The notes under the pieces were generated by a model that worked only from the letters and a program-made list of their open reading frames with translations, searched no databases and was not told the DNA's origin. Positions 35,845-38,588 of a DNA stretch of 64,000 bases are shown here, piece after piece. This DNA is from Oscillospiraceae bacterium. Its GTDB lineage: Bacteria > Bacillota > Clostridia > Oscillospirales > Acutalibacteraceae. The position numbers were made by a program, and so were the translations under genes. Every line of letters starts with the position of its first letter. Position 1 is the first letter of the stretch. The DNA is taken from NCBI GenBank assembly GCA_031271865.1, contig JAISUW010000050.1, positions 1 through 64,000 on the forward strand, written 5' to 3'.

Positions 35845-36603
35845 TCAAAGTATACTCGACAGAAACTGCCTTGTCCGCTCATTTTGCGGGGACTCGAAGA
35901 GTTGCTTGGGCGGTCCCTGCTCCGTGATTTGCCCGTCGCACATGAAGATGACGCGGTTGGCGGCTTCGCGGGCGAAACCCATTTCGTGCGTGACGACCAG
36001 CATGGTCATGCCGGAGCGTGCCAAGTCCTTCATAACGGCCAAAACTTCCCCGACCAACTCCGGGTCGAGGGCGGAGGTCGGCTCATCGAAGAGCATGACG
36101 CGCGGCTCCATGGCCAAGGCGCGGGCAATGGCAACACGCTGCTGCTGCCCGCCGGAGAGCTTGCCGGGGTAGGCATCTGCCTTTTCGGATAGTCCGACTT
36201 TAGCGAGCAGGTCACGGGCTTTGGCTTCCGCCTCGGCTTTGGATATGTTCTTCACATTGATGGGAGCCAGCATCAGGTTCTCCAGTACCGTCTTGTGCGG
36301 AAAGAGGTTGAAAGACTGAAAGACCATTCCCATCTCTAATAGGAGATTCTTGTAAGTCGTTGTATCTACTACGCTGACCGTGCGGCCTTTTTCCCGGTGG
36401 AGAAAAAGACTGTCGTCAATAAAGATTTTGCCGTCATGGATGTCTTCCAAGCCATTGAGGGCGCGCAAGAGGGTAGACTTCCCTGCACCGGACGGACCGA
36501 TGATGCAGATAACCTCCCCCTGCTCTACCGAGAAATCGATGTCCCGCAGGACGTGGAGGGAACCATAGTATTTGTTGACTTTCTCCGTGCGGATGATAGA
36601 CAT
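35845..36603 (-). CDS. Polar amino-acid ABC transporter ATP-binding protein (GlnQ-like)
   Basis: [54 protein letters not shown]. Confidence 0.93.
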
Positions 36604-36621: not shown

Positions 36622-37335
36622 TCAGTCTTTCTTGGCCAGGCGTTTTTCCAGACGGTTGAATACGACCGTAAAGAATGCCGTCATAATTAGGTAGATAATC
36701 ATCGCGGGGATATAGACCATGGCACTCGCCTTGTTGGAGGCTATCATCTTCGTTTTGAACGTGAGATCCGTGAGGGCGATGATAGACACAAGGGAGGTAT
36801 CCTTGAGTACCATAACGAACTCGTTGCAGACAGGGGGGATCATGCGCCGGTAAGCCTGCGGGATAACTATCATGCGCATGGTCTGCCCGTAGGAGAGTCC
36901 CAGGGCATGGGAGGCCTCCAGTTGCCCTTTGGGGATAGACTGAATCGCCGCCCGGATAATCTCCGCCAGGTAAGCGGCGACGTTGAGCGTGAATGCCAAG
37001 AACGCCGCAAAGAATCGGCTCCGGATGGTGAATGCCGGCACCAATGACGGCAGTGTGTAGTAGATAAAGAAAAGCTGCATCAGGAGCGGTGTGCCGCGGA
37101 AGAAAAACACATACGCCGAGGATACTGCACGGATGGTACCGGTCAGGGCACGGCCGAAAAAGTCTATGACCGGGCGGCCGGTGTCGCGGTGAACGCGGGC
37201 TATCTTCCCTAAGGCAAGGAACACGCTCAGCACCAGTGCTGCGCAGACGGATGTTGCCGTCAGTTCCAGCGTGATGCCGGAGGCTTTCAGAAGCTCCGGT
37301 AGCCAGCCGATGATTTGCTCCAAGGATTCGCGCAT
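36622..37335 (-). CDS. Amino-acid ABC transporter permease
   Basis: TM protein with RGTPLLMQLFFIYY and EIIRAAIQSIPKGQLEASHALGLSYGQTMRMIVIPQAYRRMIPP. Confidence 0.92.
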   Translation of the reverse strand: MRESLEQIIGWLPELLKASGITLELTATSVCAALVLSVFLALGKIARVHRDTGRPVIDFFGRALTGTIRAVSSAYVFFFRGTPLLMQLFFIYYTLPSLVPAFTIRSRFFAAFLAFTLNVAAYLAEIIRAAIQSIPKGQLEASHALGLSYGQTMRMIVIPQAYRRMIPPVCNEFVMVLKDTSLVSIIALTDLTFKTKMIASNKASAMVYIPAMIIYLIMTAFFTVVFNRLEKRLAKKD

Positions 37336-37417: not shown

Positions 37418-38257
37418 TTAGGCAGCGGTAACAATGCAGAGTTGGTTGGCGACATAGGGCTCCGTGAGGATGTACTTCTCTTGGCGCTCCGGCGTGATGG
37501 AAACGGCGGAGATGATGCAGTCATACTGCCCTTTCTCAAGCCCGGCGAAGATGCCGTCCCAAGAGGTGTTGACAAACTCGACTTCCAGGCCGAGCAGCTC
37601 AGCGAGAGCCTTAGCGACATCCACATCAAAGCCGATGTATTCCGCACCGTCGTCCGTGGTGTATTCCATGGGCGGGTAGCCGACTTCCATGCCTACGGTA
37701 AGGACGCCGTCTTTCATGGTCTTGAACTCGGTCGGGATTGCCGGGGCTTCGGTCGGTGTACGCAGGTCGGCGGTGAAGTCGTCGCCGAAGTTATCCACGG
37801 CGATTTGGTTCATCTGCCCGCTGAAGTTTAGGGCATCCAACGCGGCTTCGATGGCTGCGGCAAGGTCTTCGCTGCCCTTGGCAAGGCAGATACCCATCGG
37901 CTCCGGCACATCAGAGAGCCAAGTGCGCACGAAGTCGGCACTGTCTTTGATGTAGTAAGCAGATACAACGCTGTCCACATAAACGGCATCCACGCGGCCG
38001 AGTTTGAGGTCGTCAAAACACTGCGTGACTTTCTCATACGGATAGACATCGATGGTGGCACCGGCGGCAATCATCTCATCGAGGCTGTCGGAGGCGGTGG
38101 TGGCGGTCTGGACGGAGATTTTGCGTCCCTCGAAATCGGCGGGGCTGCTGATAGGGGCGGCGTCGGGGGTGTCGGTTGCGGTGCTTTCACCGCAGGACGC
38201 GAACGCAAAGAGCATCGCGGCGGCGCAGAGGATGGAAAGGATACGCTTGGCTTTCAT
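37418..38257 (-). CDS. Amino-acid ABC substrate-binding lipoprotein with apparently permuted lobe order
   Basis: Lipobox LFAFASC; lobe-2-like SPADFEGRKISVQTATTASDSL precedes lobe-1-like DGVLTVGMEVGYPPMEYTTDDGAEYIGFDVDVAKALAELL. ATG 38257 with RBS ggaggaatccc. Confidence 0.85.
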   Translation of the reverse strand: MKAKRILSILCAAAMLFAFASCGESTATDTPDAAPISSPADFEGRKISVQTATTASDSLDEMIAAGATIDVYPYEKVTQCFDDLKLGRVDAVYVDSVVSAYYIKDSADFVRTWLSDVPEPMGICLAKGSEDLAAAIEAALDALNFSGQMNQIAVDNFGDDFTADLRTPTEAPAIPTEFKTMKDGVLTVGMEVGYPPMEYTTDDGAEYIGFDVDVAKALAELLGLEVEFVNTSWDGIFAGLEKGQYDCIISAVSITPERQEKYILTEPYVANQLCIVTAA

Positions 38258-38588
38258 CGGGATTCCTCCAATATTATTATAATGGGCGCACATGGGGGGA
38301 ACACGAGCCTCCTTTGTACGCCGTTGTACCCGGAAAACAGAGCTTGCCTTTTGTCATAAAAATTATACTCTTTTCGCATAGTAAAGTCAAGGTTTTTTTG
38401 AAAAACATCCCGTTGTTGTAAAAATCATATTATAATAGTAATCACATTATAATAATAATCATATTATAAGAAATATAATATTTCTTTATTAATAATATTA
38501 TGTTTATTATCATATCAATGTATTTTACATTATTGTAAGATTTGTATTATTGTAAATATCACATTTTTGTTAATATCCCGTTTTACCC

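Follow-up and report, generated by a model that had tools for sequence, protein, structure and literature searches.

A circularly permuted PAAT-type binding protein from a clostridial ABC operon, with recurrence and apparent reversal among its relatives

Known natural circular permutants are mostly isolated pairs, ancient and strongly diverged. The effect of permutation on folding, hinge motion and function is therefore confounded by divergence. One gene in a 64,000-nucleotide stretch of Oscillospiraceae DNA, referred to here as the window, raises the question of whether a substrate-binding protein (SBP) in an ordinary ABC operon has had its lobes swapped and, if so, whether such a swap is singular. 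Three segments are distinguished: L1, the N-terminal part of lobe 1; L2, lobe 2; and R, which leads back into lobe 1. In canonical proteins these run L1-L2-R, and the window protein reads L2-R-linker-L1. The evidence supports a clean circular permutation of a single gene of the polar amino acid type (PAAT) at the interlobe hinge, in a normal ABC operon.

The gene, its segments and its operon

The gene (37418..38257, (-) strand) encodes an SBP_bac_3 lipoprotein of 279 aa, ordered L2-R-L1 by segment HMMs. Its reading frame, with ATG at 38257 and TAA at 37418–37420, is that given by a first-pass annotation of this DNA. A Shine–Dalgarno sequence, GGAGG (38265..38269, (-)), can be read 7 nt 5' of the ATG, as can a lipoprotein signal peptide (38192..38257, (-)) ending in the lipobox FAS-C (Cys22). 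(i) L2 comprises residues 36–118 (37904..38152, (-)), which align with canonical AncQR (4zv1) from its residue 109 and match the L2 HMM. This segment lies mid-chain in canonical SBPs and contains a conserved Asp within VDAVYVDS. (ii) R, residues 119–161 (37775..37903, (-)), is defined by the 4zv1 alignment and the R HMM, and forms the C-terminus in canonical order. (iii) The linker TADLRTPTEAPAIPTEFKTMKD, residues 162–183 (37709..37774, (-)), is delimited by alignment and a linker profile and bridges the former C- and N-termini. (iv) L1, residues 184–279 (37421..37708, (-)), matches PF00497 positions 1–91 and 4zv1. It begins the mature protein in canonical SBPs and contains a conserved Arg within SITPERQ. 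Two genes follow 3' of the SBP gene: an ABC permease of the BPD_transp_1, PAAT/cystine type (36622..37335, (-)) and an ABC ATPase of the polar amino acid/cystine type (35845..36603, (-)). Both are ordinary by Pfam and NCBIfam, and the earlier reading of a normal permease/ATPase context stands.

Family membership is established by the Pfam SBP_bac_3 profile (PF00497), which scores 115.1 bits against a cut-off of 26.4. The match falls in two stretches, the better of which pairs residues 186–277 with profile positions 1–91. A canonical SBP would give a collinear match running from lobe 1 through lobe 2 to the return segment; the window protein does not, its order being rotated. A phmmer search of the PDB aligns residues 184–275 with residues 10–101 of 4zv1, and residues 36–158 with residues 109–232. 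NCBIfam models give a two-stretch swapped pattern for the window protein, whereas the canonical relative L056, which served as control and is 73% identical over the shared segments, is matched in a single unbroken stretch. The window protein is a permuted variant of the SBP_bac_3/PAAT family and not a canonical member.

Predicted structure points the same way. An AlphaFold2 model built from 26 permuted homologues without templates reaches a pLDDT of 93.1 and a pTM of 0.86. The predicted fold is two-lobed, and its succession of helices and strands is that of the L056 canonical model, rotated. Foldseek, which is order-dependent, aligns only 78–80 residues of the window model with PAAT SBPs (0.8–1.7 Å, TM about 0.29), against about 205–260 columns for the L056 model on the same structures (TM mostly about 0.6–0.75). 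A full-length Foldseek alignment with OpuAC was dropped as proof of topology, since the canonical SBP 4g4p aligns similarly poorly; lobe pseudo-symmetry is probably the cause of such poor full-length alignments. The 60 top-ranked hits of each PDB profile search include no permuted PAAT chain of solved structure. The first-pass annotation had inferred swapped lobes, apparently by circular permutation, with the new termini at the interlobe hinge. The profile matches, the model and the structural comparison with its canonical control bear this out, and the boundary coincides with the first lobe 1-to-lobe 2 hinge crossover.

One permuted gene or an artefact

The same L2-R-L1 order is common to about 30 related proteins at 45–76% identity, designated clade A. 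These come from Oscillospiraceae, Clostridiales Family XIII and Christensenellaceae assemblies and from the cultured isolates An867 and MH27-2. N-termini across the clade are lipobox-like, and an Arg and a Pro of the linker are invariant throughout its alignment. The ligand-type pocket Arg of lobe 1 and Asp of lobe 2 are likewise invariant, in 18/18 clade-A proteins; we take their pocket role to be that of the LAO/HisJ residues. The order SBP–permease–ATPase is kept at nearly all clade-A loci with enough flanking sequence. The permuted proteins are under purifying selection, with dN/dS of 0.05–0.24 in close pairs. Plasmid records gave 1446 matches. In none did 80% or more of the query match at a single location, which means that the window-type order was not encountered there.

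An assembly error, a frameshifted tandem domain or a decaying pseudogene could mimic permutation. The window genome is a draft of 70 contigs and relatives carry tandem and partial SBP copies, which gives the idea some footing. Such an artefact is nonetheless barely conceivable, given that the order and an intact frame are kept in about 30 clade-A proteins and that the single-contig genomes G390, G418, G543, G514 and G289 hold other permuted family members. Assembly error is ruled out by recurrence of the order in independent assemblies and two cultured isolates, although these are assemblies and not raw reads. A pseudogene is ruled out by the intact frames of relatives and by dN/dS far under 1. 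The arrangement lobe 2–linker–lobe 1 could also be produced by adjacent-gene fusion, with lobe 2 and lobe 1 derived from two different SBP genes joined in reverse. This origin is very improbable. L1 and L2+R rank their canonical relatives identically, with half-protein identities of 83%/65% to L056, then 75%/61% to L012, then 69%/49% to L057. The shared ranking rules out a two-gene chimera, and the common nearest relative of both halves identifies the locus as a permuted single gene. Fusion of two near-identical tandem copies is likely the physical route, and is counted here as permutation.

Order changes and reversion in the family

The wider family was surveyed with segment HMMs at 205 loci. 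Permuted queries supplied part of this set, and some loci overlap; the counts of order are therefore not frequencies. Sampling was within Clostridia, and other phyla were not systematically covered. Among the ORFs, 109 read L2-R-L1, 64 L1-L2-R and 28 R-L1-L2; four E. coli controls (HisJ, ArgT, TcyJ and GlnH) were all canonical. At 20 further loci, several of them in single-contig genomes, the ORFs were mostly R-L1-L2, with L2-R-L1 at 4; shuffled ORFs from this set gave zero segment-HMM matches. A permuted ORF is present in at least 48 genomes of a 200-genome family sample. In a separate 60-genome class sample, chosen by PF00497, re-reading of short-span matches confirmed at least 13 permuted ORFs, spread over 10 genomes. 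Clostridia thus contain the family in each of the three rotations that the two hinge crossovers allow, together with a cut in lobe 2 and tandem fusions, and some permuted SBPs are fused to a permease (L015).

The R-L1-L2 proteins form a second permuted type, cut at the other hinge crossover. They occur widely across the class, in scattered phylogenetic positions (L029, L031, L066–L077, L130–L132, L134, L135, L209–L211 and others). A cut inside lobe 2, giving L2c-R-L1-L2n, is seen at L196:1396-2217 (-) and L212:919-1794 (-), the latter in a 3.26 Mb single-contig genome. L196 is the one such ORF of the 205-locus survey, and L212 belongs to the 20 further loci.

Many independent order changes have taken place in this wider family. 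In a 111-row tree, built after the segments were restored to canonical order, 22 order changes are needed. Supported branches alone force at least 14 changes for L2-R-L1 and at least 8 for R-L1-L2, gains and losses being mixed in these counts. Sister pairs of differing order have UFBoot support of 98–100 (L062/L032, L154/L198, L159/L185, L167/L130 and L156/L180, as well as L184 beside L082/L095). A single origin of the permuted order is rejected by the trees and by AU tests. Exact cut points also differ, which supports independent permutations: the window clade is cut before SPxDFxG, and L032 and L198 are cut after the SLDDL equivalent, which therefore stands at their C-terminus.

Clade A itself (support 98/95) contains 29 permuted rows and 4 canonical ones, L059, L012, L056 and L001. 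L012 (= L098; G167) is canonical in order and belongs to the same genus as the window protein. The deepest branches of the clade are permuted, and a constraint that keeps the permuted rows together is rejected (p 5e-10 or less). When the tree is built from the neighbouring permease and ATPase instead, the canonical operons of L098, L056 and L059 are again nested, and L098 is the nearest neighbour of the window operon. The nesting of canonical proteins among permuted ones indicates reversion to canonical order. A linker profile built from permuted proteins only strongly matches the C-terminal tails of just the four clade-A canonical proteins (E 2e-12 to 3e-7), so the tail resembles the old linker left dangling. 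In outgroup canonical tails the match ends at model position 8, and the VTExPVI tail is absent from the outgroup canonicals compared.

One of the four, L001, is an orphan canonical-order SBP of the window genome itself (L206:4262-5194 (+), contig C13). It is fast-evolving, carries a linker-like tail and has a long branch of uncertain placement in the clade-A tree. Contig C13 holds no permease.

The direction of change in clade A is apparently from permuted to canonical. This is an inference that rests on where the tree places these proteins and on taking the tail for a vestige. The converse is that these canonical proteins (L012/G167, L056, L059, L001) retain both order and tail from their ancestor, and that permuted forms arose repeatedly and independently with the tail serving as linker. 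Independent permutations abound in the wider family, and the tail might be older than the first permutation; a tail-first history with many identical permutations is not strictly excluded. We consider it unlikely. It would demand that the same event took place about eight times at one junction, where the alternative takes one gain and three or four reversals, and it must accommodate the permuted deepest branches, the missing outgroup tail and the nested canonical operons of the permease–ATPase tree. Clostridial PAAT SBPs have thus probably been rotated repeatedly, through three rotations, a lobe-2 cut and a clade-A reversion that left a vestigial linker tail. If this is true, circular permutation is no rare, irreversible accident but a frequent and reversible change in a living family.

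Such a family would be a rare natural laboratory for protein rewiring. Close pairs are available in which a permuted and a canonical protein have up to 73% identity over their common segments and occupy the same operon position. Independent rotations in sister pairs, candidate intermediates and probable reversals with footprints make the mechanism and consequences of permutation directly testable. Order-dependent annotation (Pfam, NCBIfam, Foldseek) reads the permuted receptors as two broken pieces. Biosensor design gains naturally tested hinge cut points.

Transport, route and known systems

The best explanation, held with high confidence, is that the window protein is a lipid-anchored, permuted PAAT receptor for its own ABC importer. 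Transport, ligand class, hinge effect, route and reversion are all inferred, without experiment. As proposed, a two-lobed Venus-flytrap protein of the polar amino acid type would be tethered by its lipid anchor and feed the adjacent importer, whose single permease gene implies a probably homodimeric channel. The linker of roughly 22 residues joins what were the C- and N-termini, and the new termini have opened at the first lobe 1-to-lobe 2 hinge crossover. Folding and ligand clamping are expected to proceed as in a canonical relative. The lipid anchor would have moved to lobe 2, and of the two hinge strands only one, the L2-to-R crossover, would remain covalently continuous, as inferred from segment order.

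The protein is most likely an ordinary receptor for polar amino acids or of the cystine type, the ligand, transport and the effect of the anchor shift being inferences. NCBIfam matches the permease best to a cystine model and the ATPase to ectoine and cystine models, all under cut-offs; no equivalog cut-off is met that would assign a ligand to the SBP. A search of 18 loci for Rfam riboswitches as a ligand clue found none beside the window gene or those of its clade-A relatives. An FMN riboswitch at L040:589-733 (+) lies about 3 kb upstream of a permuted SBP gene and is probably unrelated. The permuted protein might instead be a sensor or an orphan ligand binder, freed from transport by its changed anchor point; its anchor position and hinge continuity are indeed unlike those of canonical SBPs. 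This is improbable, as the gene stands directly upstream of those for permease and ATPase, both here and at nearly all clade-A loci with enough flank, and elsewhere some permuted SBPs are fused directly to the permease (L015).

Compared with canonical PAAT SBPs (PF00497; HisJ, GlnH, TcyJ, AncQR), the window protein shares family, predicted lobe folds, pocket Arg and Asp, anchor and operon. It differs in its L2-R-L1 rather than L1-L2-R order, its hinge termini and the anchor on lobe 2. Natural permutation is already known for other SBP classes. TpMglB-2 (Tp0684), a naturally permuted Type I sugar SBP termed 'Type Ic / Cluster Bc', also found in gut Gram-positives, is a lipid-anchored protein serving an ABC importer, and its authors suggest that the topology may owe its origin to tethering (PMC4990184). 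It differs in being a Type I (cluster B) sugar binder with another cut and an extra hinge crossing, and is described as one family; recurrence or reversal was not found described there. Membership of the window protein in Type Ic/Cluster Bc is excluded, its top matches being PAAT amino-acid SBPs and not the Type I sugar fold. The glycine-betaine binders OpuAC (2b4l) and ProX (1r9l), reported circular permutants, illustrate natural permutation among SBPs of the same general class; they belong to another SBP family, share <24% identity, were detected by structure only and lack close permuted/canonical pairs (PMC2395249). The window protein is not of the OpuAC type: it has no such Pfam or NCBIfam match, and Foldseek to OpuAC is weak (TM 0.50, 12% identity, 7.4 Å). 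Searches of open-access literature found no report of permutation in the PAAT family or of such recurrence, which is weak evidence as subscription papers were not covered.

The tandem SBD1-SBD2 of GlnPQ (6h30) consists of two canonical domains in one chain. Across the domain junction it presents lobe 2–return–lobe 1, the order of the window protein, and shows how a permutant could be cut from a tandem. The inferred route would run from tandem duplication through fusion to trimming, both forward and back. Candidate intermediates exist: by segment HMMs, L079 and L080 are fused tandem canonical SBPs, and L038 and L043–L045 have adjacent permuted SBP pairs. Adjacent pairs and fused tandems fit a route of duplication, fusion and trimming. 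L028/L102, in G126, is an adjacent pair of mixed order, with one canonical and one permuted SBP gene in a single operon, 5' of the permease and ATPase. Permuted units are also fused in tandem, three in the 1000 aa product of L189:706-3705 (-) and two in the 779 aa product of L195:595-2931 (+); the former is fused to a permease by Pfam, and the end of the latter is permease-like by eye.
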